From a virus, in the IMG/VR virus record IMGVR_UViG_3300020470_004573, positions 1 to 58,125 of that record: a stretch of DNA of 58,125 nt; one strand, 5' to 3'. Made by a program: the position numbers and the translations under genes. The notes beneath the pieces were generated by a model. That model did not search any database, was not told the origin of the DNA, and saw nothing but the letters and a program-made list of their open reading frames with translations. Positions 6,803-36,372 of this stretch are shown here, in pieces. Numbering within the stretch: position 1 is the first letter of the stretch; every line of letters starts with the position of its first letter.

Positions 6803-6819
6803 AACATATCCATATCCCT

Positions 6820-7956: not shown

Positions 7957-7976
7957 TCTTCATTTCTCCTTATTTA

Positions 7977-14970: not shown

Positions 14971-17694
14971 CTAAAATGATAAATCTTCTACATTAACAGC
15001 TGGTAATTCACTTGGGTCTTCTCGTGTAATAGGTTTATCAAATCCAGCTTTACTAACCTTATAATCACCTATTACTATTCCCCTATTGTCGTTACCACTA
15101 CTATCTTGAACAGTAATTCCATCTATATAATCAAAATTTAATTCACTAATACAAGATTCCATTAATGGCGTATTACTATTGTTACTTATAAATAGCGTAC
15201 CGACACAAGTTCCTTCAGGATAAGTTGGATTTTCTGCAAATCCTCCGACTTCATTTTCTAAATCATAAAATTTATTATACTCATTATAATTTACAAATGT
15301 TTGACCTGTGACCATACAACTACCACCATCTGGACAATCAGTTCCTTCAGGACTATAATCACAAAATCCTCCGTGATATTTATGATAGTATCCATCACCA
15401 CCACAAATCAGTAAATTATCTCCAGGTCTCATTTGACCTGGATAAACTCCCTCTTCACACTCTCCAAAAGTATCACTACAATTTAGAGTATTTCTTAATT
15501 CAGGTAACATTAATAAATCATTCATATCATACGGTTCTGTAAAATATCTAAATTGTGCTAAATCAACTTTACCAAGATGGTCACCTAACTCATCAAGATA
15601 TTGTCCAGGTGTGTTAGCATATGCTTGTAGTGATTGTCCTTCTCTCACAATTTCATGTTCACTAAAAAAATTATCTTTAACTAAACTTTTTGTACTTTGA
15701 ACATATTGACTTGTTCTTGATATACCACCTATTATTGGAGATGTTTCTGGCCAAGGTATGTAGGTGTAATCATTTCCACCCAAATCACTAAAATCTTCGA
15801 CATAAGCATTATCACTATTCAAATTAATTTTTATAGTTACAGCTTTCCATCTCAAAGTTTGAATCCAATCATTACCAGCATTGAAAACTTTATTTGGATT
15901 TCTAATATAACTAAATACTATTGCTTTAATAATTTTTATACCAGGAGTAGTATACTCGTGACTTGCAAAATTATATCGCCAACCTTCAGTATCTCCTTCA
16001 GTCCAATTATTATGGTTGGAATCATAATAATAAAATAAATCAACTATGTCATGTGTACCTTCTTCTTGCATCAATAATAATTCAGTATATGTTTGTGGAA
16101 AGTTTTGCATTATATCTACCCAATCGATATCGGTGTTTATAGCATTCCAATCAGTAACAAAAAACATAAATCTTTGATTTTTTAGTATACTATCATTTAT
16201 TTCAATATAATCTAATCCTGTTTGTTTTGTATACCCATCTAAATAATCTGGAAACCAAGCCGCAGAATCTTCCGCTATTCTAAAAGTTAAATCGATAATA
16301 TTTGGAGCAGTTGTGTATACATAATCGTCACCATACTCATAAAAACTTTGTAAATCATAATCCCAACTTTCAGAAACTGAAACATAACTAATTGGTCTAA
16401 ATTGTAACACATCACTTCTTCTCGATAAAAAAGATGCATCAGAATCCGTATAAAATGGCATTTCATTTACACCATATTCTAAACTACCAGTTGAAAAGAA
16501 AGACATATAATTAATATCAGTATTAGGATTTAAATTTATAAATTCGGGTTGAGAAGCTACATTAACATAAGTCGAATCTAAATTAGAAGGATAATTTTCC
16601 AGTAAATATGCCTCGTCATCTAAACCACTTAAAGTTATTACTAATCCATCTACTTCATAAGCCGCACTTTTTTTATCATCACCGAACCACCCACCTTCAT
16701 CTGATTCAGTTCCGTGATTATCTTGTCTTGTAGGTGGAAGAGGAAAAGTATAAGTAGGACTTACATCATTCTTAGTATATGAACCTGAAACAAAGTTATT
16801 ATCCTTATCACGATAACCTGGTTTTGCAGTTATGAGCCATCCAGGATTACCCCATTTAAGAGTTACACTTGGTATACCTCTATTTGTCATTAAATCATAA
16901 AAATATTTTTTAGGTATTTTAAATTTTTGAAATGACCTATTTCTCCTATCTTTATTACAATATCCAGTTTCTTCAGCGTTACCATGCATTTTTATAACAA
17001 TCCATATATTAGAATCATCACCTATTCTCTGAACCTTGTCTGAAAAATTTTGCATGTCATCACTAAAAACTTGTGTAGGATTAAATTGGTTACATACAGA
17101 ACTACCTAATTCGATTTCAGATGGTCTATTTATATTATTAATTGATAGCTCTGACCAAGTTCCTCCAGTACTATGGTCTCCACAACAATCACACCCATCC
17201 CAATGTTCTATACCTTCTCTAGTACTACAAGTTCCGTGTTCTATACCAAAATTATTATCACCAAAACAAACATCACCTTCACCAGAATCGTGATTGTGAC
17301 AACCTTCATTCCATCTTAAAGGACCGAACAATTTATTTTCGTTATTACAATATCCGTCTATAATTCCACCATCTTCTTCATCAGCAATAAAAGGACTTAC
17401 ATCTTCATCAAAAATATGAACATATAGTTTACCATCTACAGTGTCATAGTTTTGTCTATTGTTTAAAAATATTTCATTGATTGTAAGTTTAAGTCCTTTC
17501 CAAGGCCACATAAAACCAGGATATGTAGAAATACCTAATTCATTTAGATATGTTCCTTCACTTAAAGAAAATAATTCTCTATTACCCTTAATAGAAGTAT
17601 CCATTATAGTTCCATATTCAGTATTAAAATTATACTGACCATTTGCTCCTCTATAAGGTTTCTGTCTATGTATTATTTTATCAAAATCTGCCAT
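14971..17694 (-). CDS. Tail fibre/adhesin-like protein, 907 aa, paralogous C-terminus to the 6224-aa protein
   Basis: 907 aa, with a Cys-rich N-terminal third (several CxxC-like pairs around residues 110-170) and a C-terminal third matching the end of the upstream giant protein. Shared landmarks, in order: YTYIPWPETSPIIGGIS versus YTFIPYNDSTPFVGGIS, LGDHLGKVDLAQFRYFTEP versus FGNHIGNIDMSQNRYFTKP, and IVIGDYKV versus LGVGDYRI with a following acidic tail. The common module is therefore a repeated structural unit, perhaps the part that assembles onto the tail. Its start overlaps the giant gene's stop by one base (TAATG). I see no enzymatic motif. Confidence 0.7.
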   Translation of the reverse strand: MADFDKIIHRQKPYRGANGQYNFNTEYGTIMDTSIKGNRELFSLSEGTYLNELGISTYPGFMWPWKGLKLTINEIFLNNRQNYDTVDGKLYVHIFDEDVSPFIADEEDGGIIDGYCNNENKLFGPLRWNEGCHNHDSGEGDVCFGDNNFGIEHGTCSTREGIEHWDGCDCCGDHSTGGTWSELSINNINRPSEIELGSSVCNQFNPTQVFSDDMQNFSDKVQRIGDDSNIWIVIKMHGNAEETGYCNKDRRNRSFQKFKIPKKYFYDLMTNRGIPSVTLKWGNPGWLITAKPGYRDKDNNFVSGSYTKNDVSPTYTFPLPPTRQDNHGTESDEGGWFGDDKKSAAYEVDGLVITLSGLDDEAYLLENYPSNLDSTYVNVASQPEFINLNPNTDINYMSFFSTGSLEYGVNEMPFYTDSDASFLSRRSDVLQFRPISYVSVSESWDYDLQSFYEYGDDYVYTTAPNIIDLTFRIAEDSAAWFPDYLDGYTKQTGLDYIEINDSILKNQRFMFFVTDWNAINTDIDWVDIMQNFPQTYTELLLMQEEGTHDIVDLFYYYDSNHNNWTEGDTEGWRYNFASHEYTTPGIKIIKAIVFSYIRNPNKVFNAGNDWIQTLRWKAVTIKINLNSDNAYVEDFSDLGGNDYTYIPWPETSPIIGGISRTSQYVQSTKSLVKDNFFSEHEIVREGQSLQAYANTPGQYLDELGDHLGKVDLAQFRYFTEPYDMNDLLMLPELRNTLNCSDTFGECEEGVYPGQMRPGDNLLICGGDGYYHKYHGGFCDYSPEGTDCPDGGSCMVTGQTFVNYNEYNKFYDLENEVGGFAENPTYPEGTCVGTLFISNNSNTPLMESCISELNFDYIDGITVQDSSGNDNRGIVIGDYKVSKAGFDKPITREDPSELPAVNVEDLSF

Positions 17695-20600
17695 TAAAAT
17701 GCCTTCTCGTCACTAGTATTTTTCGATTCTATTATTATAGGATTTCTTTCTGGTTTTCTACCATCATCAAACTCTATCCTATAATCACCTACACCTAATC
17801 CTATGTTTTCATTTCCACTCTTGTCCTCTGAAAGTCCGCTGATAGATTGATTTAAGTCAGTATCTATTAATAAAGATGAGTCTTTATAATTACTATCAGT
17901 TACAGGTGATGTTAAATCTTTTTCATTCCACATTCTATTAGGAGGACCGAATGGGATTCTACCACTACCTTGCATAATTTGTGTAAAATTACCAAATCTA
18001 TCAACTCTTGGTAAAACTGGATAATAATATCCATCAATCCAACTTTGGTCGGATTCCTCATCTATAATTAGTTCTTCAGTTATTAAATTTGTTTTTTCTT
18101 TTATTGATAAATCCCAAACATAAATTGAACTATTTTGATTTATTCCCAAGAAACCAAGTGATTGAGTATCCCCATTAGGGTTGTAAACATATTCAAATTC
18201 ATATGGAACATAATTATATTCATTATAAAAAGTTAAAAATTGTATTTCTTGATATCCATTTTCATCTATAAATCTTACTTGAGGTGAATAGCTATCATTT
18301 ATTGTTCCTTCATAAAAAGCTTTACAACTAATAATATAAGTTTTACCTTCTTCCCAAGTATAATTACCAATAAATTGACCTGATGATTGTGGGTCATTGA
18401 AGTTTATAGAACTACCGGCAGTTTCATTTTTATCATTTTCTAAATGTGTAATTTTTATCATTTTAATTCCATCATATTCTTCTACACTATCTTTTTCAAT
18501 AAATTCAAAATCGGAAAAATAAGGATTAGGATTTAAGACAATATCTGAATTTACTAATTCATTATTTAAAAATGATTGTTGATTTAATGATACTCCAATT
18601 CTATCTTCAATTGTAAAATCTTTCGGTATAATATTTTTCCAATATCTATCAGAACTTGGATTTCCACCATAAGATTCTATACAATCAGTATAGTCAATAT
18701 CTTCTATCGTATATGGAGAAAGTGTATCTCCCAACTCAAGTTGAGCTCCCCATACATATAAAACATCACTTGTATTTCCAGGTTGGTCTCCACCAGGTCT
18801 ACCAAATGGTGAAACAATTTGTACATTAATATATTGTCCAAAAAGGTCAATATCTTGTGTAGTAAATGTTCCATATATTCTATGCCACTCACCAATCATA
18901 TCAGCATTTATTGTATTACTTATATCTACTGTTCTATGTCCAGCATATGTAACATCACCTTGATAATCCCATTGATTATCTTGATTCGCTATTCCACCAT
19001 CTATCGTATAACAACCTTGATAACAAGAATAATGTTCTATAGCTGAAGAATCATTAGGTACACATTCTGCACCATCCCATTCACAAAATATTCCCATATC
19101 ACACTCTTCTTCTAAAAATGTGTTACACCACTCTTTGTCGACTATACCATTAGGAGTTTGGTCTAAAAATTCTTGAGTAATACAATATTGAGATGTTGTT
19201 GGGTCACCATAAGTAATAATACCATTACCTTGATTATTACCATGTTGAGCCCAATCTGAATTATTACATACTTGATTTGCATTCATTCTAAATTCTGGTT
19301 GGTCAAGGTCTTCACCAACTTGATTTCCTTCAGGTATATAAACATATGTTGAAAATGTATATGTTTGTCCTTCTTTAAGATTTGGATTATAATGGTCTGA
19401 TAATGAACTCAAACCATTGTAATTTAATCCTTTACCCAATCCATCTTTTGTTATTTTAAATTTATATCCAAATCTAATATCGTTAGTATCTGTAGTACTA
19501 CTGACATCAAATAATTTTGTTGCAGTATTAGTTCCATCAGGTGCTAAAACTTCAGTTGTATTCCCTACATCCTGTGAGTGATTTCTATAATTCATTCCAG
19601 CTTCAGGATTATTTAAAGGAATTGTATCTACAGCACTGTATATATCACAATTAAAACCTAACATTTGCCACATATCAATTGGTTTAGTAAAGTATCTATT
19701 TTGTGACATATCAATATTACCTATATGATTACCAAATTCAGAATATTTTTGGAAATCACCTTGATTTATCTGAACTGTAGAAGAAGGGTTATTTAATGAA
19801 CCATATTGGTCTACACTTCCACTAAAGAATCCTTGAACTAATGATGAAGATAATTGTAAAGGAACATCATTAGAATTTTCATAAACATATGTTTTAATTT
19901 TATCATCACTTTGTATTTGTTCATTGAAAGAAAATATATGAGCACCTGAACCAGTAAACTTACTCATTTCTTCACCAATATAATCTTCTTTTAATAAAGC
20001 TAATGCATATTCAGATTCTAATCTATCATTGTAATTTTGAAAATTTAATTTAAATGGATTTTGTTCATCACCAACATATCCTAATTGTCTTTTTATAGAT
20101 TTAAAATAAATACTATCTTCTGATATACCACCAACAAATGGAGTACTATCATTGTAAGGAATAAAAGTATATCCAGCACCACCGACTTGTTCGTGTTCAT
20201 TTTCATAACCAATGTTTTTACTAACTTTAAATCTAACTAAAAATTTATGATGTTTATCTATTCCCATAACTCTACCAACTTGTGCTAATTCTTCAGGAAT
20301 ACCTACTTCATCACATTCATCACCACACGCATATAAACAACTTACATAAGATTCTGTTTCTTCGTATAAAGGCCAAACATTAAATCCAGAACAAGCATCT
20401 TGACAATAAGATTCGCAATCTGCAGGATTATATCTAACAACCCTAAACATTCTACCAGTCATTTCATATATTCCTGGTCTTTCGTAATTATGTGTTAATA
20501 CACTATCATATCCAAGTTGAAATGGTTCAGTATCATATTCCATACTTGTACCATCACCCCAATCTATAAAACCAACATAAAGATTTTCATTATAAACTAA

Positions 20601-23600
20601 ATCTTCAAATGCATCTTTTTCTTCAAACATTATTCCATTACCATATTCTCTAGCATAAAAGTAAAATTGAACTTCGGTTCCGGCTGTTGTTTCGTTATAA
20701 TGTTCTGGTTGTAATTTAGGGTCATAGTATTCAAATACAGTAGAATAATTTCCAGATAATCTATATGATTCTCCTGTAAAACTCATTGGAGTTCTTGCAT
20801 CAACATCAGGAATAAAATCACCAGCTCCACCGTGAACAACTGTTTGGTCAAATGGACTTATATAAGAACCTGATGCTACAGAGTCCCATCTAACTAAATC
20901 TTCATATCCATCATCCGTTTCTCTGTATATAAAACATCCTAATTGAGGACGCTCATCTAAATCTACACTTTCAATTCTTCTTCGAGAGTTATTTAATGGT
21001 ACATTCAAAGTTTCTGGAATATTAACACCCTGCCAAGGTAGATATCGTTTTGGTAATGTTTGTTTGATTGGAATAACATAATTTATATCTAATCTTTTAG
21101 CATTATATCCAGTTTCAGTTCCACCTGATACATCATCATCAGGAACTGATGACCAATATGTATCAAAGGCTTGCATTACAACTTTATAAGTACCTACTTC
21201 TGAAAATCTATGTGTGTGTCCATACATTAATAAATCTTTAACCCAATTACCTTCTCTAGTATTACCATCACCTGTACAAGGCCAATTGTCTGGATGTTCA
21301 CACGCTCTCACACAATCTGTAGTTCCACTATAATCAACACCATCTATAATTGTACCATCAGGCCAAGGTAGTTGACACTCATCAGGTTCGTCTATACCAT
21401 AATCAGAACCATATCCTGGACAATAACTTCCATCAGGACAAACATATCTGTTAGTAAAGGTATTACCACTTTCTACATAAACTTCAGGTGGGTCTGTTGG
21501 TAAGGATTGTATTGGAGGATAATACCAATCTAATCCATATTCATTAAATGGATAAGCAATTGTCCAATCTCTCCAAGTTTTTGGATATCCATCTATTAAT
21601 TGAGCTTTGGTTGTTATCCATATACCACCAGCACCTTCAGAATCTTCGTCATTTTCACAATCAAGTCTATTGTCAATTTGATTACAACTAGTCCCATCTT
21701 CTAATTCGAATTGACAATCTGAACATCTACCCTCATATTCATTACAATCTTCATAATCAACCTCTTCACCATTTTCATCTACACAATGATAGATAGATAA
21801 ATCATATCTCCAGATTGTATCGTGGGTATCAGTTCCACCAGGATTAAAGTCTGGTTCTATTCCAGAACCTAACCAATTATAACCAATCCAAGTACCATCA
21901 GTACATTGTGCTTCTTGTCTATCATGTATAATATATGCGTTAAATTCGTGAGCTTCCCAATCAAAAGCTTCCCAAGTACCACCAAGACCATCACATACTG
22001 ACTCTTCTATACCCAAACAATAATCAGGACAATCCTCATCAAAACAACAAGACATACCTATTGTTTCACATACAGGTGGTGGGTCACATATTTCACCAGA
22101 AGGACAATCATCATCGGCTGTACAAGGTGTACTTGTAGTTACTGAACAAGTTCCAGTTTCAACACATCCACTTTCATAACAAACACCCAATGATGTACAT
22201 TCATCTGAAGTAATTTGCATTGGATAATGTGGGTCTTCATAGTGACTTAAACAATTACCATAAGTTACACACTCTCCAATTGTAACATCTGATTCACCAT
22301 TACTACAAGTACCTGAATTTTCAACACATACTCCATATGTTTCACAATTTAATTTATCATATTGATTATTTGGTGATTCTGTATTTGATTCATAATGTAA
22401 AGTGTCACAACTTCCATCAGAAGAATACATCGCAGCGTTTTTACTTAACCATCCACCATAGTTTGGATTTGGAAAATCATATACTCCAGTATTACCAACT
22501 TCATCATCCCAATATAATCTTTCTCTTAAATCACCTCCTGAAACAGAGAATAAATATGTATCAGGTGAAACTCCAAATGAACTTACCAATACTGGAACAA
22601 CTACTCCTTCGGGACCGGATGTATCTATTGAACTAATCTCAAACTCATATTTAACACAAGAACAAGTCATTGTCTCAAGGTGAGGGTCACATGTACAAGT
22701 CGTAGGAATACCTTTCCAATATAATCTTAAATCTTCGGGTGGAGTTTCAAATGGTGTTTGATTAGCATAAATTGTTACTGTCCAATGACCAACAGATTCA
22801 GGAGAACCTATAAATAAAGTTCCTTCAGGAGTAATGTTTATATTTAATGGTAAATCCTCTTCTGTATTAGAACTATAATACATTGTAAATGTAGGAACAT
22901 CATATGCATTGTTATTAGAATTTTCTGGGTCGGTGAAATCAACTGTATAAAGTCTGTCTTCTTCTTGACCAACTCTTAAAGTGATACCTGTTGTACTTAC
23001 ATCTTGTAATGTACCACCCGTATTTAATCCATTAATAACTAAAGGATAATCATTTCTAACCCATTTAACCCAAAGTCTTTTTGTTCTCTGTACATGAGTG
23101 AATCCATCACCATTTGGGTCTATAGAATTTTTATTTGGGTCTGTGACAGTAACTTCATAGAATCTTGTGATTTCAGTTAAATCATCTGGTGTATATCCAT
23201 AACCAGCTTCATAAGGGTCTATCCTAACACATTCATCACCAGTTTCTTGACAATCTTGGTCACTATATAAAATTTCACCACCATCAGATAATGCATAATC
23301 GTGCCATCCACCACCCATACCATCACATAAATCATTCCATTCTTCAGGTGTTGTATATCCAAATGGAGCTATTGTAGAATTACATACTCCATCCGATAAA
23401 TCAAATACTGAATAATTAAATGGATATTCTTCGGTTGTATACCAAGAAGCTCCTCGTTGATTAATACTATTACATTCACCACATCCATAAACACAAACAC
23501 CATCAAGAACCCCATCTCCATCATTGTCAGGTCCACAAGGTTCTCCACTACTTGTACAAGAAGCACCATATTGTCCAAACTCTTCAAATCCCTCACAACT

Positions 23601-26600
23601 AAATAATTCACATTCTTCATCTGATGGCCATTCAGTTATAAAATCACATACAGATTGTCCTGTACCAGTACCAGATGAAGCTATATAGTCTTCACAACTT
23701 TGTCCATCTGTTAAATCTCCACATAGAACATCGTACTCTGTCCCATATTCTTCTTTTGAAATGCAATATTCATTTGTAGGTAAAATTTCATATTGTATAC
23801 ATTCTTCTCGACATTCGTTATATGTCGTATACAATAATCCACTATCGTCACCTAAACAATTCCAACCTTGACCACCTGTAACAATTACTCTTAAGTCGTT
23901 GTCATCCCAAGTAGATTCAGTACAATCTTGTGGATTAAAATTACAATCTTCAGGTAAAAATTGACAAGGAAGTCCACCACTCTCCGAATCATTTACCCCA
24001 TTACAAGTAAAAGAACCTAATATAGGTTTTCTTAAAATAAGATAATCAATAATCCAATCACCACCAGCGTTATCACATTGTGTTTCAGTAAATATCTCTT
24101 CACTTTCAACACCCTCTATTTCACAATGAGCATTTTCATCCTTAAGTAATTCAACTCCAACTTCATCTACTTTTAAAGTTTGATTTTCATAATATTTTAT
24201 TTGAAGCATATAATCAAAAGGAAGTACACATCCACCATTTGTAATCCAAGTATTGCATCCATTACCTTCACATCCATAATCTGCAGATAGAGTAAAATCT
24301 CTTAAAGCATAATTGATAGCATCTGGGTCTAAACAACCACCATACAAACATTCATTATATGGGTCATATGTAGAACCATATAAGAAATTTACAGCTGGTG
24401 ATGGTGATAATAAACACTCAGTAACACAATCTATATCAGTTACAAAAGTTCTTGGCCAATCAAAATCATTTGATGAATCTAAACAAAAAGCTTCGTTAGA
24501 ATATTCAAGTAAAACATCACCACTACTACCAACACAAATACCGACCACACCATTTATTGTTCTACTACAAGTAGAGTCTTTTCCAAAATCAAGAATATTT
24601 CCGTTAGAGTTTTCACATTTATATGTTTCATCGAGAACATGTCCAAAAGAACCTTGATTGTTTTCATAAAATGTTCCATTAGGAGCTAAATTATCAACTC
24701 TACCATCATCTTGACAACCTATAACAGGATATCTACAACTTGAAGCACATTTTGCATCATCTACTGAACCTTCCCAATCACCTTGATTAATTGCAAACTC
24801 AACACATTGTGTATCGTTTGTACATTCAAAATTAATTTTAATATTACCATTACCATCTACACAATGATCCCAACTAGCTTGTGGGTCGTAGAATGCAGAT
24901 TTACTATCAAGAGATACTAAACATTCATTTGGAGAATTTAAAAGATGATGAGTAGAATCACAATAACTTTCAAAAACAGATGATGAATCATCAGTACAAC
25001 TATAATAATCAGTAATTCCATTAGAGTCACAAGACCCACACATATTAGAACAAGTATCACATATACAAGCACCATTAATCCAAACACCTTCACCATCTAT
25101 TATAGGTTCGTCAATACATCCTTGTTTTGTAATAATTGAAAATGTAACATTATCATACATTACACCTAAAGTAGGATAATTAAGTTCACCATATATAGGT
25201 AAAATTCCAGTAGAAGGATAATTAGTATGGTCACTTATAGTTGCATTGTTCCAAACAACATCTGTAATATCAAAATATTTATCATAATATTGAACACATC
25301 CAACTTTCCGTGTATCATCATCAATATCACCCTCACTCCAATAACATCCTGGCCAATCATCAATTCCGTTTTCACAATCTGATTGTGATAGAAATTGTTT
25401 ATCATTTCCGTCACCATCAACCCACCTTCCAAATGGTGTCGGACAATACCAATTACCAGTAGAAGTACCATCACTTCCGTTTGTCCAAGTTGGTAGTTCA
25501 CCTAATTGATTTAAACTTGGAGTTTCTGTCCATCCATTTCCAATAAATTCTATTGAAAAATCTCTATTAATATTAAAAGGTATAAAACTATATTGTATCT
25601 TTAACCAAATCTTATCATCTTTTGTAAAGTTCCAATCACAACTTTGTACATCAGGAGAATCACCTGAACAATTTGGAGATGACCAAGATTCCGAATCTCC
25701 CCCTATAGGTTTAACTACAGAAGCCGTCATTGTCGGTGAGTAATGGTCATTAGATACTGTAACAATTTCACTTTGTGCTTCTATTCCAAGACCACCTGTT
25801 GATACAATATAATAACTTACATCAGTAACAGCTGACCAATCTATATCATTTGTTCCATCTACAAATGTATCTGTAAACTGATAATTAACTTCAGTAGCAG
25901 ATACCTTTTCGTATGTGTAAAAATCACTTAAAACATCACCAAGAGAATACCAAGTAGCTCCCAAATCTACACTTCTATATATTGCAAATTTTTCTACACC
26001 TTCTTCATATCCCATACCCATATTTTGACCAGGGTCATATGACCATTTTAAAATAGTAGGGAAGTTAGAGTCGACTTGGTCATTTACTGTAACAACATAT
26101 CTACAAACTCCTCCTCCACATTGACTACCATCAATACATTCAATTGAAGGGTCATTATCACAATGTCCAGTTGCATATAATGGGACATCAAAATTATAAG
26201 AACAACAAGTGAAATCACCACCATTTAATACATTAACACAATCTAAAGATGGAGATGAAGAGTCATAATTATTTGCTTCCGAATCTAAACATTTAAATCC
26301 ACAATCATTTGGAGGGTCAATAGCATAAGAATCGTAACACACACCACATTCATCCAACTTATATTGACATTCTTCACCTAAATCATTACAAGTACAAGTT
26401 CCATTACAATCTTTATTGTTATTTACTTCACCAGGAGTATCCCAACATTCACCACATTCATCAGGTCCATAACCTGGACAAAAATCAGTTGATAAATAAA
26501 AATGTCCTGTAAAATCACTAATATTAGTACCTATACTATTTATGTCTGGTTGTGTTATTGATGGTAACCCATCTACAGTACCACCATAATAAACATTATT

Positions 26601-29600
26601 TTCATCTGACAAATTACCTACACAAATTCTTAATGTTGTAACAGGATAAAATGTTCCACCATCTTCACAAGTACAATCACCTTCAACAGCATTTGTACAA
26701 GTATATTCTTCTTCTGCTCCACCTTGACATACACCAATTTCACCAGTACAACCATCAAAGGATGGAGTGCCCGTTCTACATTCACCTGTACCTGTAGTTG
26801 TATAATCTAAATCTGGATAAACTGTTCTAAAGTCTGCAGGTGGACAACAATTACCCCAATCATCTACTTCATTTGTTCCACCACATTGACCACTACAATC
26901 AGCCACTCCATTATAATATGGTTGACCTTCAGTTGAACAACATTCATTAACAACATCATCGTATCCGTCTCCACCACATACACCACAAACATCAAAATCT
27001 ACAATTGGGTCACCTCCACTACCTACATTATTAGATGCACAATCATAACAACCACCTTCCCAAATATAACAATTACCATCACTATCAGGAGTTATAGTTC
27101 CAAGTCCTAAAACATTTGTCAAATCGTCTGGTTGAACTAAACAAGTTCCAAAGCATGAACCACATTCATCTATATCTTCACCAGCTTCGTGTTCTGTTGT
27201 CGTACCTGAACATACACCACAATCATCTATATATGAACCAAAGTTATTATCATATGGAAAATCCCAAGAAGATTCAAATTGTTCAGTATATGGAAAACAT
27301 ACACCATTACAATCTTGATTAGTACCTTCACCACTTGCTATATTTATAATAGAATTATTTTCAAGAGGAACTGAAATACCATTAGGTCCGTTGTTATAAC
27401 ATAAACCACAATCATCTACATATCTACAAACTCCTGTACCATTTTCGTCTTGAACACAGAATCCATTTTGTGGATATGTAGAATTACAATCAGTAGAACG
27501 AACTATTTCATCTCTACTCATATGTATAACTCTTACATCGGAAATTATAACCTGATGAGGTGGTAAATTATCACCACCCAAACCAAATCTTAAACTTGCG
27601 TGAGGATTACCTTGACCAGTTGATGGTTTTGTTACTTGAGAATTTGCAATAAATTCATAAACCTTATTTTTATCATTATTTGCGGTTACTTCAAAATTTT
27701 CATTTAAACCATATGTTTCCCAAGAAGTTCCATCTTCATCCCAATCTTCACCATTACTGTGTTCTATTAATCTAACATTGATAGTTCTATCTATCGTTGA
27801 CAATATCTTAAAAATAACTCTATATACATCACCCTCGTCAAGTGGAATATTACTTGGATATGATGGGAATACTTGAACATGATTTCTATCGAGTCCACCA
27901 TCATTAATTTGAATAGTAAATGATTCAGAATCTCCTTCCAGTATTTCTGAAGATGCACCTTCAGTTGTATTATTCCAAACAGTAAATTCGTTTATAGGTG
28001 TTCCTAATATATCTTCTCCGACAAAATCTGTAATACCGTATTCAGTATAACCTCCTAAAAATTGTTCTTCTGTCATCATATTATTAGTACAAACTTCAAC
28101 ACAATCACCATCACACCAAGTATCAAATGCACCAGGTGTACCATCAGGTGCAACACAATCACAATATTGGTCACCTATTAAATCTAATGTAGCTCTTGAA
28201 GGCCATAGTGAATATACAATATCATTATTACATGTACCACTACATTCAACATTACAACCTTGACCTTCTCTACAATGATACCAACCATTACCAGGGTCAA
28301 TATGTGGACAATTAGAATTTGTTATTTCACCACACCCTTGTAAATCTAAATCAGGGTCACCATAATATGTAATTTGTCCTACTCCGTGAACAGAATATTC
28401 CGTTGCACCATTTTGAGTTAAAGTATCTTCAGGACAATAATTACAACTATCTTTAAGACCAGGTAAACAACAATTGTATGTTGTGTTATATAATTCACTT
28501 TTATATAAACAACAAGTCTCATCACCATTTGAATCAAAACATCCGTTTGAATATCTATTACTATAATTACAAGTAGAATTATCTGAATCTTGACATCCAT
28601 ATCTTTTTAAATTTACGGCTACTTGTCTTTTATATCTCGGACCTGTCATTGTAGCACCTGTTAATGGGTCTGTTAATTCATACCAATTATAAGGCCACCA
28701 TATTGTAACATAGTTTGTACCCGAATAAGGACAAGGGTCTCCACCACAAGCAGTTGCAGAATCCCAATAAGAACTTTCCCAAGTCGAATTGGATAATACA
28801 ACATGATTTTCTGTTCCTGTTATATCATTTACATCTGTAAACGAGTATGTATTGTAACAAGTACCTGCTCCACCACCACAATCATCTAAATTAAAAGTAT
28901 TAGGACCATTTATTCCAAACACTCCCCTACCTACAAGAGTATTTATCGCACTTGCAGAATTTGATGTTATCGTATATGGGTCACCTGAACCTCTATCATA
29001 AGATAAGTTTGTTGTAAAATCATAATCAATATCATATTTAAAAGTTGACATATTATGTTGAACTGCATTATCTTGATTAAATACATTAAATTCAAGTGCT
29101 TGCCCATTAAAACTATTTATATATGGTGATGGTGTATGTGAAAGTCCATAGTCAAAGAAATCATTACATGTATTATTATATACATCTGTAGCATTACAAA
29201 AATGTTCATTTTGACTTAAAACTTCTGTTTTAGTTCCACCCACTTCAAAATGTGTAATATCAAATGTCGGATATTCACATTCAGGTTGATAATGTACATA
29301 ATCACATTCAAATATATCTAGTGTATAATCACATCCACAATTGTCAACAGATGTACAATTACCCGCATATGGGTCTAAACAACCATATGAAATATATAAT
29401 GGAGCTCCATATGAAACCACATTATGTAATGAAGTATCTAAATATGTATCACCTGCACTATCTCTATAAACATAAGTCCCACCATATTCAGCAGTTAAAT
29501 TATAAAAATCGATATAAAAACTATTATAGTTAGGTGACCAAGATGCTCCATTAACTAATAAATCTAATGTAAATAATTCTGTATCAGTTCCAATTGGAAT

Positions 29601-32600
29601 AGGTGTATTTGTAGTCATCTGTACTTGATATTGTAAGTAATCACCTTCATCAGTCGGAGAGTTAACAACAACAGTGTTAATGTTAGGATGTATTTTAGAT
29701 ACACTTCCTATAGTAATTGGGTCGTCACCTGGTTTAGAAAATAAATTAAAATGTATTTGAGTAATGTGACTAATTTCCGTAGTGTTAGTTATTCTAACCG
29801 GAAGTTTTCCTGTAGATGTGTTAAAAGTTCCAAAAGAAAATTCTGGTGCACATGTTGAACCATCACCATCACAGATACCACATACATCATTTTCTGGATA
29901 TCTTCCATCATTTGGATGACCATCATCTACACATTGACTTCCAGATTGGTCATATCCGTGATACCAACTTGAATCACAACCTTGAACACAACAATAGTCA
30001 GTACTAGATACACAATCTCCACAATTATTTGTCGAATGGTCATAGTCACCAGTATCACATGCAACATCTACACAATAACCATTTGTTCCACAAGGTTCTA
30101 AATAATCAGTACATCCCGATGTTCTTATTAATTCAACATTTGAAAATCTATATGAATTATTTTCATAACTATTGACAGAATAATGTGAACCATCTCTTAA
30201 ATATATCCTAATATTATCATCAGCATAATCTGGGTCGTACCAATGAGGTATAATCCATCTAGCCGTTACATTTCTCCAACCATCACCATCAGGTTCTGAT
30301 TCTGTTCCCCAGGGACTATCTGAATTATAATTCCAATATAAATAATCACCTGCCCACCAATCTACTCCTAAAGCAATAGCTTTTTCTTGACATAATACTG
30401 ATTGTTCGGCAGCAGTGCCTGTTATAGTGTAATCTACCCAAGCGTCTGCTTGGTCATTAGCAAAACAACTTGCAGCTGAGTTACATCCAAGATGACATCT
30501 ATATGATGGGCTTCCAGAAGCATAAAGAGAAGTTGCAACTTTTCTATTGTTTTCACTCCAATATCTAAATGATAATACTAATTCTTCTCCAGGAATTAAA
30601 CCACCAATAGTATGGTCAACATTTATAATCCGTAAACCATTGTTATTTGATAAACATGGGTCTGTATCATTACCTTCTAATTCCATTTTTGTACAACTTA
30701 CACCAGAAACTTCTTTTCCTGGATTACCAAGATTATCCACTATATCCGTTACAACCATCGCATTATCAGTACAATTAGTATTTGGATGACTTGAACAACT
30801 CCAAGAAAATGGATCAACATCATCAGGAATACCACTGTAAATTATAGTTTGATTTATAGCACCATCAGTTCCATCACTACATATTAAGTCACCAGTTATA
30901 CCTCGACAATCAACTGTTGAATTATAATCTGTTGAACCATCTCTACAATATCCACAATCATCATATTGATGAGTTCCATCACAAGCTAAATTATGTTCTT
31001 CTTTTGTTGTCCAAGAACCTGAACACTCACATTGACCACCACAATCAGTTGTATGAGGTCCGTCACATACACCCGCACAATCTTTTGTTTCTCCAGCAAC
31101 TGTAACTTGACCAAGATAATTTCCACCAAGATTATATGGAGTATAATCAGAAGTTCCTGTTATACAATATCCACAATCGTCTACACTATATTGACATTGA
31201 GGTCCACAAAAAGTATCATAACAAACACAAGAACCTGTTCCTTCTGTTGTTCCGTTTCCATTAGTACAACAACTTGTATAATCACAACAAGAATAATCAG
31301 TTCCATCTTTAACAGGAGGGTTAGCACAATCAGTTGTACCTGATGTAGAACAAGCATTTGCATCTAAACATCCAGAACAAGATGTGTTATCACCAGCACA
31401 AACACCACAATCATCAGTATCATTCGAATAACAATCACATTGCCCATCGTCATTATTAGTTACCCAACTTCCACTCATACTACTAACTAATGGATAAACA
31501 GTTCCAACATTTACAATTGTATCACCTTGAGAAAGACATAATGTCGATGCACTACCACAACCTAAACCATCACCATCTTCGTCTAAATAATATTGGCCTG
31601 GAGAAGGTCCGTTCGATGAAGAACCATAATTACAACCACAACCTACATTTGTTGCATTATTACCATTTGGTATACCACAATTATCTAAACAAAAACTATT
31701 CCAATATAAGTCTAAACACAGACCTCCAGTATCTGATACTACAGGGTCTTGAAAATCTCCACATATACACTTACCACATTCATCTGTTAAAGCAGTTCCA
31801 CTACATACACCTGCACAATCTGCGTCATCACCAACAACAAAACAAAATGTAGGATATGGACAATCTGATAAATTAGGATTATTTCCTAATTGTTTACAAG
31901 GAACACCTGTATTGAATGTTCCACTATAACAAGTTCCAGTTTCATTACCACCTTGATTTTGACAAACTCCACATGCATCTTTACTAGAATTTGCAACATA
32001 ATTATTTCCACCACAATTGTCACCGATACAAGAACATATTCCACAATCATCTATTTCATTAGTACCATTTGGAACATTGAAACAATCTGAACAAGATGAA
32101 TTATCTCCATCACAAACACCACATTCATCAAATTCATTAGAGAAACAGGTTTCGTCTTCATCATTGTCACAAGTATTATTCCAACCAGTCGTATCATCGT
32201 ATGGACAAAATTCTTGTTCTACTTCACAATTTGATGTTCCATCTCCATCCGTATCATAATAATATGTTGTTGTTCCATCACCTTCACATATACCACATTC
32301 ATCTCTACCACAATTTGTTAATGGTGTAGTATCATCACCAGGAGAACTACCATCAGCAGTTACCTCATTACAAGAACCAAGATGAGTTTGACAAGCACCG
32401 GCAATAATATTATAACCTTCACCAGCACCACAACCCTCATCAGTAGAAACATTATCTCCTGGTGCACAAGTTCCTTGACAATCTTTTGACCTTCCTTGAC
32501 CATTACATACACCACATTCATCATATTGAGTACCACCACAAACTGCGTTATGACCAGCATAATCACCAAGTGTCCAAGAATCAGAACATTCACAATCACC

Positions 32601-35600
32601 ATTACAATTTAGTGTAGCAGTACCATTAGGAGTTCCCTCACAATCACAACAAGTACAAGTACTAGATGGACAAGTTGTTAAACCTGTTCCATTTGGCCAT
32701 TGAGTCCATTCAGTACTCCAACAAGTTCCTCCACATACACCACATAAATCTTCCCTAACCCACGAATTACATTGGTCTGTCCAAGCTTGACCAGGGTCTA
32801 CACTACCACCATCACAAGGAGCTACATTACCAGCACAATCTTGACAATCAGTTGTTGTATAAGTTGGGTCACATTGACCACAAGCATTCCAAGTTTGATT
32901 CGGACATTCACAATTTAATGCAGTTGTTTCAACTCCACTCGCTTTATTTGCATATCCTGCAGGTTGTGTACATTGAGATTGTTGACCACCTATAAGACCA
33001 CCACCATCATCTAAAGATGGAGGACATCCTATACCATCCGAGTCAGAATCTAAATACCAAACAGGAACACCATTTGTAGTTGTTCCATTTTCAAGAGTAC
33101 AATCATAACCATCTGGACAAGGTGGAGGATTACCACAAGAATAAGTTGCAGTACCCCAATTACAACTATTATTTGTATTAGAACCATTAACTACACTTGC
33201 ACAATCACAACACGCATGTAAATTTGAAGGGTTTGGATATTGTACATTTCCATGTGCAACTAAACAATCTGCGTTAGTCCATATACCAGTTCCACCACTT
33301 GAATATCCATTTTGATGACAATTAGTACAATTATCAATTGTGTAATTACAAGCCATACTATATTGGTCATCAGTTGGACAAGAACATCCACCATTACAAT
33401 CCCACCATAAATTTCCACTACCACAAGCACCTGATGAATCACATTTATTTGTATTTACACATACACCATTATCACAAGACCATAATGTACAATTAGTTGG
33501 AGTGTTACTACAAGCAGTACCACTTGTAGGATTACATTGAGTTGTACCATCACTACATAAAAACCAATCACCATTTAGAGGTTCAGGTCCTTCAACACAA
33601 TTTCCTGTATCATCATAAATTTTACCACTACCTGGAATACCATCACAACCTGCACAAGAATGACAAGTTCCACTAACAAGAGTATCAGAACATTGCTCAT
33701 AACAATATGTACAAGTCTCTCCATTATCATTATACCAACACCCATCAGAATAATCAGAAGCAGCACATTGATTACAATTGTCAGTAGCTGTATGTGCATC
33801 ACCTGTACGATATGGATGTCCATTACAATCTGTACTTAATGTATCGGTATCAATAATATTAAATCCACCAGATTCATTAGTAGAAAAAGTAATTATTGGT
33901 GATGTTTGGTCTATTGAAAAACTTAATGAATTATTTCTTATATTTAAAGTTTGATTATCATCTTGATTTACATCATCTATAAGACTCTCATATGTAACTG
34001 TAAAAAGAGTATTACCGACAGTACAAGTAGAATCTGAACAAGGGAAGTCACCATAAGAACTCGGAGTTGGAAGAGGTATTGAAATAGTTTGATTTAATGT
34101 AATCAAAGATTGAGGATTATCTGGTAATCCGGTATGTTCAAAGTCACAAGTCCAATTAGCATTTGGAGGTTCACAAGAAGTAACTTTTATACCATCTAAA
34201 GTTATTTGATTTATTTCATCTACTGGTCGTGGATTCCACATTTTAAATGTAAGAGTATTTGTTGAATGCTCAACATCACCAAAATATAAATAAACATCCC
34301 ACATACAACTACCATCATCAACAACACAAGGTGAAGAACAACTATTATCCATAGTGTCTGCTAAACCTGTACAACAATCTTGGTTTATTTCTCCACCAGT
34401 ACACAAATCTTCTTGACCATCACCTGATTCATCACACCAATAATTGTTAGCATTAGAATGTGTACAATCATTAACTAATTGATAATAACAACTATTATTG
34501 TTATTTTCTTCATCATCTAATACCCACAATGGTAATTGTTCAGGTTGAGTAGCTACACCACTTGGACATATATCAGTATTAAAAACAAACTCATCTCTTC
34601 TACATATATAATTTAAAGCATCAACATCAGTACATACTTTATACCAAGTACCATCACAATCAGCTTCATTTATATTTAAATCCTCTTGTGTAAAATCGTC
34701 ACACCATCCACTTAAAATACTTGTAGAATATATTTGATTTACATCTATAGGTGTACCATAATTGTCTGCAAAATCAAATTCAGGTGGTAATGTAGTTTCT
34801 TGATTATTTGATGCATTAGGTTCTATAAAATCTATTTCTGAACCACTATAGTTTAAAAAACTATAAATACGATTTAAAGAAGAACCTGTTTTAAGTAATG
34901 GGGCAGAGTTAGTATCATCCAAATCCCAATTATTCAAATCAGTTATATGTTCTATTAAAGGTATGGCACCTGGGTTATGAGAATTATATTCAAGGGGATA
35001 ACCCTTTGGATAGGTGCCAGAAATTGTTCTGTCGTAACAAAAAATTGATTCCATTTGAGGAAAATACGACTCGTCTGGATTTGATTTCCATAAAATTATT
35101 TTACCACTACCGTGAACTTCACCCGCATGTTGATTTCTATAATCTATCCACGGCGTAGATGTACATTCATTATCTACAACTTGTATTTGTTTATCTAATT
35201 TAAAATCAGTAAAAGAAATGTTTAAAGGTAATAATGTTGCATTAATTCCAACCCATTCATTTTCAAGTGTTTCTAAATCACCTTCGATATCATTAATTAA
35301 ATCACCGAAACTTAAATTGGGTGAAAATTCTCCACTAGAATTAAAAACTCCATAATTATTTTCTTCGTGGTTACTTATAACTACATATTTATCACCGTGA
35401 CGAACAAAAATACAAGTGTCATCACAATTGTCATTACAATCTGAAAAATTATAATATTCGTGAGGTGAATTAGAAGGACAATAATAATTGTGAATAGGAC
35501 TATTATCTTTTGACTTCATGATAGATTTATAAATAAAACCATTATTATTATTTTCAGTATATCCATCAATACCACTTAAAGGTGAAAGTGATATTCTATC

Positions 35601-36368
35601 ACCATCACTATTAATTGATTCAATCCAATAATCTGATATATCAATATCTGTATTGGTTACATTAGTTAATTCAATCCACTGTGGGATTTTAACTTGGTAG
35701 TCAGATACAGCTTCATCACCTTCGTCATCTTTTAAAAAAACTTCCGATATGATAACATCATAGGAAGGTGGATATGTACAACAATCTGTAATGTTGGGGT
35801 CTGGAACTCCACTCGAATCAGGACAACCAGGATTTGATGAACTACCATTATCAGCAGTATCATCAGCACATCCATACGACATTAAGTATGTAGAAACATC
35901 AAGATTAGTTGATTCACAATTAGCTATACCAGCAGCTAACGCTGCACATGCAGGTAGATTCGGATTACATCCATAATCTTCTACTGGGTCAAATGAAAAT
36001 GTAAAAGTTTGATTTTCATATATTTCATATTGTGGATTACTATCTGTAATTTGAAAATTATAGTTAAGTACAGCACCACCATCTACAGTAAATGCACCTT
36101 TTAATGTATATTTACCATTCGAACAACAAGTTCCAGGTGGAATACAATTTACATTATCGTGAAGTCCCGGTGGAGCTATTTGATTAAAATTATCACATAC
36201 TCCAGTACAAGTTACATCCACCAATGTTACTTCAGGATAATCTACCCAATAGTCTCCACTACAACATCCGTTTGGTGAAGATGTATAACATGAATCAATC
36301 TGCGCTTGTGAAGTACAAGTCGTTGATGTAATTAATCCATTTATTGAAACTGGTAATGTATATGCCAT
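17694..36368 (-). CDS. Giant 6224-aa Cys-rich modular tail fibre/adhesin
   Basis: One uninterrupted reading frame of 18.7 kb, about a third of the window. Order of recognisable parts: Cys-rich N-terminus without a signal peptide; lamin-tail-like domain (about 201-250; IISEVFLKD ... WIELTN); beta domain about 690-840; a long array of CGVC-GGDG/DCAGVC-type Cys repeats with embedded DxDxDGxG calcium-binding-like motifs (about 846-2170); cohesin-like domain about 2172-2320; further Cys repeats; FN3-like domain about 3430-3545; Cys-rich linkers; PKD-like domains near 5050-5075 and 5262-5310 (FIDWGDGT ... HNYERPGIYEMTG); and a C-terminal ~800 residues paralogous to the 907-aa protein. These modules are known from secreted bacterial surface proteins. 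Role inferred: host adhesion or a very long fibre. Hundreds of codons follow the usual AT-rich usage of the neighbours. Confidence 0.75.
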   Translation of the reverse strand: MAYTLPVSINGLITSTTCTSQAQIDSCYTSSPNGCCSGDYWVDYPEVTLVDVTCTGVCDNFNQIAPPGLHDNVNCIPPGTCCSNGKYTLKGAFTVDGGAVLNYNFQITDSNPQYEIYENQTFTFSFDPVEDYGCNPNLPACAALAAGIANCESTNLDVSTYLMSYGCADDTADNGSSSNPGCPDSSGVPDPNITDCCTYPPSYDVIISEVFLKDDEGDEAVSDYQVKIPQWIELTNVTNTDIDISDYWIESINSDGDRISLSPLSGIDGYTENNNNGFIYKSIMKSKDNSPIHNYYCPSNSPHEYYNFSDCNDNCDDTCIFVRHGDKYVVISNHEENNYGVFNSSGEFSPNLSFGDLINDIEGDLETLENEWVGINATLLPLNISFTDFKLDKQIQVVDNECTSTPWIDYRNQHAGEVHGSGKIILWKSNPDESYFPQMESIFCYDRTISGTYPKGYPLEYNSHNPGAIPLIEHITDLNNWDLDDTNSAPLLKTGSSLNRIYSFLNYSGSEIDFIEPNASNNQETTLPPEFDFADNYGTPIDVNQIYSTSILSGWCDDFTQEDLNINEADCDGTWYKVCTDVDALNYICRRDEFVFNTDICPSGVATQPEQLPLWVLDDEENNNNSCYYQLVNDCTHSNANNYWCDESGDGQEDLCTGGEINQDCCTGLADTMDNSCSSPCVVDDGSCMWDVYLYFGDVEHSTNTLTFKMWNPRPVDEINQITLDGIKVTSCEPPNANWTCDFEHTGLPDNPQSLITLNQTISIPLPTPSSYGDFPCSDSTCTVGNTLFTVTYESLIDDVNQDDNQTLNIRNNSLSFSIDQTSPIITFSTNESGGFNIIDTDTLSTDCNGHPYRTGDAHTATDNCNQCAASDYSDGCWYNDNGETCTYCYEQCSDTLVSGTCHSCAGCDGIPGSGKIYDDTGNCVEGPEPLNGDWFLCSDGTTQCNPTSGTACSNTPTNCTLWSCDNGVCVNTNKCDSSGACGSGNLWWDCNGGCSCPTDDQYSMACNYTIDNCTNCHQNGYSSGGTGIWTNADCLVAHGNVQYPNPSNLHACCDCASVVNGSNTNNSCNWGTATYSCGNPPPCPDGYDCTLENGTTTNGVPVWYLDSDSDGIGCPPSLDDGGGLIGGQQSQCTQPAGYANKASGVETTALNCECPNQTWNACGQCDPTYTTTDCQDCAGNVAPCDGGSVDPGQAWTDQCNSWVREDLCGVCGGTCWSTEWTQWPNGTGLTTCPSSTCTCCDCEGTPNGTATLNCNGDCECSDSWTLGDYAGHNAVCGGTQYDECGVCNGQGRSKDCQGTCAPGDNVSTDEGCGAGEGYNIIAGACQTHLGSCNEVTADGSSPGDDTTPLTNCGRDECGICEGDGTTTYYYDTDGDGTSNCEVEQEFCPYDDTTGWNNTCDNDEDETCFSNEFDECGVCDGDNSSCSDCFNVPNGTNEIDDCGICSCIGDNCGGNNYVANSSKDACGVCQNQGGNETGTCYSGTFNTGVPCKQLGNNPNLSDCPYPTFCFVVGDDADCAGVCSGTALTDECGKCICGDFQDPVVSDTGGLCLDLYWNSFCLDNCGIPNGNNATNVGCGCNYGSSSNGPSPGQYYLDEDGDGLGCGSASTLCLSQGDTIVNVGTVYPLVSSMSGSWVTNNDDGQCDCYSNDTDDCGVCAGDNTSCSGCLDANACSTSGTTDCANPPVKDGTDYSCCDYTSCCTNGNGTTEGTGSCVCYDTFCGPQCQYSVDDCGYCITGTSDYTPYNLGGNYLGQVTVAGETKDCAGVCDGPHTTDCGGQCECSGSWTTKEEHNLACDGTHQYDDCGYCRDGSTDYNSTVDCRGITGDLICSDGTDGAINQTIIYSGIPDDVDPFSWSCSSHPNTNCTDNAMVVTDIVDNLGNPGKEVSGVSCTKMELEGNDTDPCLSNNNGLRIINVDHTIGGLIPGEELVLSFRYWSENNRKVATSLYASGSPSYRCHLGCNSAASCFANDQADAWVDYTITGTAAEQSVLCQEKAIALGVDWWAGDYLYWNYNSDSPWGTESEPDGDGWRNVTARWIIPHWYDPDYADDNIRIYLRDGSHYSVNSYENNSYRFSNVELIRTSGCTDYLEPCGTNGYCVDVACDTGDYDHSTNNCGDCVSSTDYCCVQGCDSSWYHGYDQSGSQCVDDGHPNDGRYPENDVCGICDGDGSTCAPEFSFGTFNTSTGKLPVRITNTTEISHITQIHFNLFSKPGDDPITIGSVSKIHPNINTVVVNSPTDEGDYLQYQVQMTTNTPIPIGTDTELFTLDLLVNGASWSPNYNSFYIDFYNLTAEYGGTYVYRDSAGDTYLDTSLHNVVSYGAPLYISYGCLDPYAGNCTSVDNCGCDYTLDIFECDYVHYQPECEYPTFDITHFEVGGTKTEVLSQNEHFCNATDVYNNTCNDFFDYGLSHTPSPYINSFNGQALEFNVFNQDNAVQHNMSTFKYDIDYDFTTNLSYDRGSGDPYTITSNSASAINTLVGRGVFGINGPNTFNLDDCGGGAGTCYNTYSFTDVNDITGTENHVVLSNSTWESSYWDSATACGGDPCPYSGTNYVTIWWPYNWYELTDPLTGATMTGPRYKRQVAVNLKRYGCQDSDNSTCNYSNRYSNGCFDSNGDETCCLYKSELYNTTYNCCLPGLKDSCNYCPEDTLTQNGATEYSVHGVGQITYYGDPDLDLQGCGEITNSNCPHIDPGNGWYHCREGQGCNVECSGTCNNDIVYSLWPSRATLDLIGDQYCDCVAPDGTPGAFDTWCDGDCVEVCTNNMMTEEQFLGGYTEYGITDFVGEDILGTPINEFTVWNNTTEGASSEILEGDSESFTIQINDGGLDRNHVQVFPSYPSNIPLDEGDVYRVIFKILSTIDRTINVRLIEHSNGEDWDEDGTSWETYGLNENFEVTANNDKNKVYEFIANSQVTKPSTGQGNPHASLRFGLGGDNLPPHQVIISDVRVIHMSRDEIVRSTDCNSTYPQNGFCVQDENGTGVCRYVDDCGLCYNNGPNGISVPLENNSIINIASGEGTNQDCNGVCFPYTEQFESSWDFPYDNNFGSYIDDCGVCSGTTTEHEAGEDIDECGSCFGTCLVQPDDLTNVLGLGTITPDSDGNCYIWEGGCYDCASNNVGSGGDPIVDFDVCGVCGGDGYDDVVNECCSTEGQPYYNGVADCSGQCGGTNEVDDWGNCCPPADFRTVYPDLDYTTTGTGECRTGTPSFDGCTGEIGVCQGGAEEEYTCTNAVEGDCTCEDGGTFYPVTTLRICVGNLSDENNVYYGGTVDGLPSITQPDINSIGTNISDFTGHFYLSTDFCPGYGPDECGECWDTPGEVNNNKDCNGTCTCNDLGEECQYKLDECGVCYDSYAIDPPNDCGFKCLDSEANNYDSSSPSLDCVNVLNGGDFTCCSYNFDVPLYATGHCDNDPSIECIDGSQCGGGVCRYVVTVNDQVDSNFPTILKWSYDPGQNMGMGYEEGVEKFAIYRSVDLGATWYSLGDVLSDFYTYEKVSATEVNYQFTDTFVDGTNDIDWSAVTDVSYYIVSTGGLGIEAQSEIVTVSNDHYSPTMTASVVKPIGGDSESWSSPNCSGDSPDVQSCDWNFTKDDKIWLKIQYSFIPFNINRDFSIEFIGNGWTETPSLNQLGELPTWTNGSDGTSTGNWYCPTPFGRWVDGDGNDKQFLSQSDCENGIDDWPGCYWSEGDIDDDTRKVGCVQYYDKYFDITDVVWNNATISDHTNYPSTGILPIYGELNYPTLGVMYDNVTFSIITKQGCIDEPIIDGEGVWINGACICDTCSNMCGSCDSNGITDYYSCTDDSSSVFESYCDSTHHLLNSPNECLVSLDSKSAFYDPQASWDHCVDGNGNIKINFECTNDTQCVEFAINQGDWEGSVDDAKCASSCRYPVIGCQDDGRVDNLAPNGTFYENNQGSFGHVLDETYKCENSNGNILDFGKDSTCSRTINGVVGICVGSSGDVLLEYSNEAFCLDSSNDFDWPRTFVTDIDCVTECLLSPSPAVNFLYGSTYDPYNECLYGGCLDPDAINYALRDFTLSADYGCEGNGCNTWITNGGCVLPFDYMLQIKYYENQTLKVDEVGVELLKDENAHCEIEGVESEEIFTETQCDNAGGDWIIDYLILRKPILGSFTCNGVNDSESGGLPCQFLPEDCNFNPQDCTESTWDDNDLRVIVTGGQGWNCLGDDSGLLYTTYNECREECIQYEILPTNEYCISKEEYGTEYDVLCGDLTDGQSCEDYIASSGTGTGQSVCDFITEWPSDEECELFSCEGFEEFGQYGASCTSSGEPCGPDNDGDGVLDGVCVYGCGECNSINQRGASWYTTEEYPFNYSVFDLSDGVCNSTIAPFGYTTPEEWNDLCDGMGGGWHDYALSDGGEILYSDQDCQETGDECVRIDPYEAGYGYTPDDLTEITRFYEVTVTDPNKNSIDPNGDGFTHVQRTKRLWVKWVRNDYPLVINGLNTGGTLQDVSTTGITLRVGQEEDRLYTVDFTDPENSNNNAYDVPTFTMYYSSNTEEDLPLNINITPEGTLFIGSPESVGHWTVTIYANQTPFETPPEDLRLYWKGIPTTCTCDPHLETMTCSCVKYEFEISSIDTSGPEGVVVPVLVSSFGVSPDTYLFSVSGGDLRERLYWDDEVGNTGVYDFPNPNYGGWLSKNAAMYSSDGSCDTLHYESNTESPNNQYDKLNCETYGVCVENSGTCSNGESDVTIGECVTYGNCLSHYEDPHYPMQITSDECTSLGVCYESGCVETGTCSVTTSTPCTADDDCPSGEICDPPPVCETIGMSCCFDEDCPDYCLGIEESVCDGLGGTWEAFDWEAHEFNAYIIHDRQEAQCTDGTWIGYNWLGSGIEPDFNPGGTDTHDTIWRYDLSIYHCVDENGEEVDYEDCNEYEGRCSDCQFELEDGTSCNQIDNRLDCENDEDSEGAGGIWITTKAQLIDGYPKTWRDWTIAYPFNEYGLDWYYPPIQSLPTDPPEVYVESGNTFTNRYVCPDGSYCPGYGSDYGIDEPDECQLPWPDGTIIDGVDYSGTTDCVRACEHPDNWPCTGDGNTREGNWVKDLLMYGHTHRFSEVGTYKVVMQAFDTYWSSVPDDDVSGGTETGYNAKRLDINYVIPIKQTLPKRYLPWQGVNIPETLNVPLNNSRRRIESVDLDERPQLGCFIYRETDDGYEDLVRWDSVASGSYISPFDQTVVHGGAGDFIPDVDARTPMSFTGESYRLSGNYSTVFEYYDPKLQPEHYNETTAGTEVQFYFYAREYGNGIMFEEKDAFEDLVYNENLYVGFIDWGDGTSMEYDTEPFQLGYDSVLTHNYERPGIYEMTGRMFRVVRYNPADCESYCQDACSGFNVWPLYEETESYVSCLYACGDECDEVGIPEELAQVGRVMGIDKHHKFLVRFKVSKNIGYENEHEQVGGAGYTFIPYNDSTPFVGGISEDSIYFKSIKRQLGYVGDEQNPFKLNFQNYNDRLESEYALALLKEDYIGEEMSKFTGSGAHIFSFNEQIQSDDKIKTYVYENSNDVPLQLSSSLVQGFFSGSVDQYGSLNNPSSTVQINQGDFQKYSEFGNHIGNIDMSQNRYFTKPIDMWQMLGFNCDIYSAVDTIPLNNPEAGMNYRNHSQDVGNTTEVLAPDGTNTATKLFDVSSTTDTNDIRFGYKFKITKDGLGKGLNYNGLSSLSDHYNPNLKEGQTYTFSTYVYIPEGNQVGEDLDQPEFRMNANQVCNNSDWAQHGNNQGNGIITYGDPTTSQYCITQEFLDQTPNGIVDKEWCNTFLEEECDMGIFCEWDGAECVPNDSSAIEHYSCYQGCYTIDGGIANQDNQWDYQGDVTYAGHRTVDISNTINADMIGEWHRIYGTFTTQDIDLFGQYINVQIVSPFGRPGGDQPGNTSDVLYVWGAQLELGDTLSPYTIEDIDYTDCIESYGGNPSSDRYWKNIIPKDFTIEDRIGVSLNQQSFLNNELVNSDIVLNPNPYFSDFEFIEKDSVEEYDGIKMIKITHLENDKNETAGSSINFNDPQSSGQFIGNYTWEEGKTYIISCKAFYEGTINDSYSPQVRFIDENGYQEIQFLTFYNEYNYVPYEFEYVYNPNGDTQSLGFLGINQNSSIYVWDLSIKEKTNLITEELIIDEESDQSWIDGYYYPVLPRVDRFGNFTQIMQGSGRIPFGPPNRMWNEKDLTSPVTDSNYKDSSLLIDTDLNQSISGLSEDKSGNENIGLGVGDYRIEFDDGRKPERNPIIIESKNTSDEKAF
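26000..33830 (-). repeat. Coding Cys-rich CGVC/GGDG repeat tract of the giant protein
   Basis: Imperfect repeats built on D-D/E-CGVC-x-GDN-x-S-C and DCAGVC/DCxGxC. Clear copies include DECGVCDGDNSSC, DDCGVCAGDNTSC, VCGICDGDGSTC and VCGVCGGDG. They alternate with YYLDEDGDGLGC- and YYYDTDGDG-type acidic loops resembling thrombospondin type-3 calcium sites, and with NPGKEV/cohesin-like globular inserts. The repeats have diverged at the residue level, so this is not a recent tandem duplication. Confidence 0.75.
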
Positions 36369-36372
36369 TTAA

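Follow-up and report, generated by a model that had tools for sequence, protein, structure and literature searches.

A stop-free frame of 6224 codons (18.7 kb) runs through the 58,125-nt stretch of viral DNA analysed here (the window), and it raises the question of whether so long a frame is a single gene and, if it is, what a phage would use its product for. The frame, first noticed in a sequence-only reading, was confirmed by the ORF call, its ATG start, six-frame codon usage and shuffled controls. When scored with the phage's own codon usage, the annotated frame was the best of the six in all 20 consecutive 300-codon segments, and GC3 stayed at 0.07-0.14 throughout (likewise in 300-codon segments). 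The other five frames contain 337-1014 stops over the locus, while mononucleotide shuffles produced no open frame longer than 121 codons. As codon-usage fit, GC3 and the shuffle test all agree, the giant ORF is a genuine gene, uniformly coding and with codon usage matching that of the rest of the phage.

An assembly error that joined several smaller frames had been named as the finding that would overturn this interpretation. The window contains no N's, but the exact length of 6224 codons comes from one assembly only: the sole near-identical contig, L013 (99.6%, with N gaps), departs from the window at position 41513 (L013 17162), before the giant gene is reached. The point of divergence lies inside the 544-aa gene, which is intact in the window, where it has its full length and aligns with its family from one end to the other; a misjoin is therefore likelier in L013 than in the window. 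We regard an artefactual fusion as very unlikely, because core-bearing relatives of intermediate length (5364, 3404 and 3389 aa) occupy the same slot in independent contigs, and because the in-frame coding signal is even across the 18.7 kb.

The sequence-only reading had also given the gene about a third of the window, which is correct for the window but not for the genome, since the window comes from a linear virus record, not a whole genome, and, among gp6 relatives of known genome, those with the best coverage have genomes of 160-484 kb. Estimated in this way, the gene's share of the whole genome is probably nearer a tenth. Similarly, the gene is very long but not the longest known, as huge-phage genomes encode proteins of up to 7,694 aa, some of them tentatively structural (PMC7162821). 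The argument that such a gene must repay a high packaging cost is weakened, because the genome exceeds the window and because a related contig, G025, carries a Cys-rich load of at least 10,262 aa over four ORFs.

Table. Features of the baseplate-tail block and of the giant protein, in the direction of the genes.
Feature	Position in window	Strand	Remarks
gp25-like baseplate wedge subunit	45960..46391	(-)	
gp6-like baseplate wedge (Baseplate_J)	43771..45945	(-)	
398-aa conserved protein	42575..43771	(-)	directly after gp6; outgroups have one too
544-aa clade-specific protein	40932..42566	(-)	ahead of Cys-rich genes
Upstream Cys-rich protein, 1513 aa	36373..40914	(-)	8.4% Cys
Giant gene, 6224 aa	17694..36368	(-)	ATG start, 683 kDa, pI 4.05, 374 Cys
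Lamin-tail-domain-like (LTD) stretch (aa 203-254)	35607..35762	(-)	below Pfam cut-off; G011 counterpart scores similarly
Cys-rich block 1 (~aa 780-2200)	29769..34031	(-)	145 Cys, 24 CxxC, D[ED]CGxC repeats
Cys-rich block 2 (~aa 2960-3420)	26109..27491	(-)	10.2% Cys
Conserved C-terminal core, part A (aa 5002-5595)	19584..21365	(-)	profile match; PKD-like stretches
~300-aa insertion within core (aa 5596-5897)	18678..19583	(-)	
Conserved C-terminal core, part B (aa 5898-6224)	17697..18677	(-)	profile match, BLAST
907-aa protein	14971..17694	(-)	C-terminal part a distant paralogue of the giant's core
2064-aa conserved tail-cluster protein	8767..14961	(-)	homologues downstream of gp6 in immuto, Mel-JY01, LR756508
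219-, 378- and 331-aa conserved tail-cluster proteins	5807..8636	(-)	

Relatives were found with the motif pattern D[ED]CGVCxGD in viral contigs and then with a profile of the shared C-terminus. The motif search returned 32 loci; when 26 contigs were tested for gp6, 11 had a match, which was strong in ten cases (41-52% identity), and in most of the gp6-bearing contigs the Cys-rich ORFs sit in the same block. Members sharing the giant's C-terminus were present in G011 (5364 aa), G018 (3404 aa), G013 (3389 aa) and G023 (2352 aa). The profile added eight further contigs, all with a gp6 43-49% identical, and seven of these encode a complete same-slot member low in cysteine (1295, 1619, 1624, 1752, 1858, 2111 and 2457 aa). 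The intermediate-length relatives that the earlier reading had proposed to look for thus exist, from 1295 to 5364 aa, in the same slot of independent contigs. The core is common to 13 contigs, and every core-bearing contig examined has it in the baseplate block. These alignments place the giant among the giant members of a family of ~1,300 to 6,200 codons, defined by a conserved ~700-aa C-terminal core.

Two other Cys-rich giants of the same block, ORFs of 6060 aa in G025 and 3086 aa in G027, were left out of the family because they lack the C-terminal core. In G025 (L067-L069), four consecutive Cys-rich ORFs of 2165, 6060, 587 and at least 1450 aa occupy positions 9470-40302, that is, 30.8 kb to the contig end. 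G017 and G033 have no Cys-rich ORFs in the giant's slot; each encodes, away from the baseplate block, a 1355-aa protein with 13.5% cysteine (G017 65632-69699; G033 35516-39583). When the giant's C-terminus and the 907-aa protein served as single-sequence queries against the viral contigs, no relative came up, and PHROGs yielded none of the giant either. Searched by tblastn, 50,697 annotated phage records gave no match for the giant's ends, the 1513-aa protein, the short member L243 or the 544-aa protein, nor for a 107-aa constructed repeat-like query, although the BLAST low-complexity filter may hide such repeats. A literature search, limited in coverage, returned no description of a core-bearing tail-cluster family.

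Across members, BLAST and profile comparisons revealed a conserved C-terminus and a variable N-terminus. Both parts of the core align with relatives, and residues 5591-5706, at the insertion, match residues 1575-1713 of the G011 protein, a module that by this alignment is placed differently in the two proteins. A PKD-like stretch at aa 5033-5071 of part A scored below the Pfam cut-off, and a second WGDG...HNYxxPGIY motif was found; the AlphaFold models, one for the core and one for a Cys-rich stretch, were poor (mean pLDDT 42 and 41), and the best fold match of a relative's weak core model was a PKD domain, with a probability of 0.93 but an E of 0.04. Together these results weakly suggest that the core stretches are PKD-like. 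Neither the giant nor its core matched PHROG, Pfam (including tail-fibre domains) or PDB, and the same collections disclosed no homology of the giant to known baseplate or fibre proteins of T4.

The N-terminal part, ~5000 aa, is rich in Cys and Asp, contains DECGVCxGDG-type repeats and has only patchy matches to relatives; a self-BLAST for internal repeats gave no hits. The N-termini themselves differ among members, being LTD-like in the window and G011, a subtilase (PF00082) in G023 and Cys-poor in seven short forms. The G023 gene (L080, 24583-31641) encodes a 2352-aa tail-cluster family member whose N-terminal subtilase scores E 4e-16. A 2357-aa protein of G017 (L085-L086, 16626-23699) has a Hint-like N-terminus, a Cys-rich middle and a C-terminus of the 378-aa family. 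Because the core family and this G017 protein both show such extensions, long N-terminal additions to conserved C-terminal domains are a recurrent design in this phage group.

Adjacent gp25 and gp6 homologues form a T4-like baseplate module in the window, which is a fragment of the genome of a T4-like (gp6/gp25-bearing) myovirus. The block runs gp25, gp6, 398, 544, 1513 (Cys-rich), 6224, 907, 2064, 219, 378 and 331 aa, so that the giant is encoded within a tail structural block, the order of which is conserved across contigs. Other genes of the window encode a primase, a RuvC-like protein, PhoH, a methyltransferase and further replication and accessory functions. They include a eukaryotic-type phosphomannomutase (PF03332, E 6e-29; 2233-2988), flanked by genes for a RimK-like ATP-grasp protein (2988-3887) and a 2OG-Fe(II) oxygenase (1500-2240), as well as a peptide deformylase gene (PF01327; 56038-56598).

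Tape measures and ejected proteins are among the very long proteins of phages, and the giant might accordingly owe its length to a structural role within the tail or head. We find this highly improbable, as the protein is 6% cysteine with a pI of 4.05, has PKD- and LTD-like stretches instead of long helical regions, lies downstream of gp6, and varies from 1295 to 6224 aa among relatives whose baseplates are conserved. Instead, the giant rather probably serves a T4-like phage clade as a fibre or adhesin attached to the virion, with its C-terminal core on the baseplate side and its Cys-rich array facing outward. This reading draws on coding throughout the frame, the gp25 and gp6 neighbours, the conserved gene order, a core present in 13 contigs against differing N-termini, the paralogous core in the 907-aa gene, the comparable arrangement in G017 and the bacterial surface-module homologues described below. 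Its presence in the virion is suggested by gene position; we infer its polarity, disulfides and contact with the host.

In the proposed arrangement, the core and the related 907-aa protein would both dock at or close to the baseplate, and the N-terminal array would project outward to touch the host surface or its extracellular matrix; because it would meet the host there, the array would change quickly. A simple hydropathy check found no signal peptide, hydrophobic N-terminus or membrane segment in the giant and, given the lack of an obvious export signal, its cysteines would stay reduced while in the cytoplasm of the host, so that stabilising disulfides could arise only once the cell had lysed. 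The protein may also bind calcium. The benefit that the sequence-only reading had imagined, passage through a thick surface layer, would be compatible with what is probably an extended tail-cluster protein; more specifically, its composition and homologies suggest Cys-rich modules of surface-protein type set on a conserved C-terminal core.

Counting against the fibre or adhesin as drawn here are the failure of the core to match PHROG, Pfam tail-fibre or PDB entries and the poor quality of the structure models. In addition, most characterised tail fibres attach by their N-terminus, the reverse of its polarity. Classical fibres carry C-terminal receptor-binding or trimerisation domains, a layout that the giant would match if the variable array were a virion-proximal shaft or sheath and the core a receptor-binding tip or trimerisation end. 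The core does have insertions, one of which, in the relative L248, resembles a carbohydrate-binding module (CBM60-like, below cut-off). We nevertheless consider the reversed orientation unlikely: the core is the conserved part and is also found in the adjacent 907-aa protein, whereas receptor-binding tips are usually the most variable, and it is the N-terminus that is swapped for unrelated domains, including the subtilase.

The Cys-rich block has bacterial counterparts. Among the matches listed, MAGs of Flavobacteriales and Neomarinimicrobiota often carry the D[ED]CGVCxGD-type motif, with bacterial proteins ~30-45% identical to the window's block over 90-340 aligned positions. Many of these proteins have, judged by eye, secretion-type tails at the C-terminus; four tested bacterial C-termini matched Por_Secre_tail (PF18962), and the phage C-terminus did not. 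This resemblance to secreted proteins would also suit a non-virion late product that is freed at lysis, acts on extracellular matrix or competing phages and is merely encoded in the tail operon. Such a role seems to us distinctly doubtful, given the placement in the baseplate block of every core-bearing contig examined and the paralogous core in the adjoining 907-aa gene. Returning to the tail-attached fibre or adhesin, we tentatively suggest that the clade may have built giant proteins from modules shared with its likely hosts' secreted Cys-rich proteins and added a new C-terminal anchor; host-like matrix modules would then bind or blend into the host surface layer and could be hardened by disulfides once in sea water.

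The repeats point to FCB-group bacteria as possible hosts; the cultured phages with the closest gp6 relatives have Microcystis and Flavobacterium as hosts. MAG bins that contain phage contigs were of no use in assigning a host, as the sole relative recovered, L251 (contig C60, MAG TMED198), is distant and has no giants. Its block consists of gp6, 373 aa and 102 aa, and then a 2059-aa protein.

In the gp6 tree, contigs with the giant-block genes form a clade (100/100) apart from immuto, Mel-JY01 and similar phages, and the Cys-poor short forms make up one nested clade (100/100). A history in which short forms are ancestral and giants derived was set aside, as with this nesting loss is at least as likely. 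The topology suggests that giant size was either lost in the short-form clade or gained more than once.

If the proposed function is right, the giant belongs to an undescribed family of phage tail-cluster proteins that vary about five-fold in length among relatives with similar baseplates, and the benefit of extreme length is testable by comparison, because length varies while the baseplates stay similar. The surface-protein modules that they share would also connect marine FCB-group bacteria with uncultured phages. The C-terminal signature (alignments A1 and A6) can be used to find more members.

Three known systems invite comparison. The very large proteins of huge phages share extreme length with the giant, a likeness of length alone rather than of compared sequence, and the available passages of that paper do not describe the giant's family (PMC7162821). 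Por_Secre_tail (T9SS-type) proteins of Flavobacteriales and Ca. Neomarinimicrobiota share its D[ED]CGxCxGD-type repeats; unlike these bacterial Cys-rich proteins, the giant has neither a sorting domain nor an obvious signal peptide and ends in a phage-specific core. Similar in the make-up of the tail and baseplate block are the T4-like phages immuto (a Flavobacterium phage) and Mel-JY01 (a Microcystis phage), which share the gp25, gp6, 398-, 2064-, 219-, 378- and 331-aa families in the same order. Between the 398- and 2064-aa families, however, each has a single short gene (112 aa in immuto, 413 aa in Mel-JY01), which takes the place of the window's 544-aa gene, Cys-rich giants and 907-aa gene.
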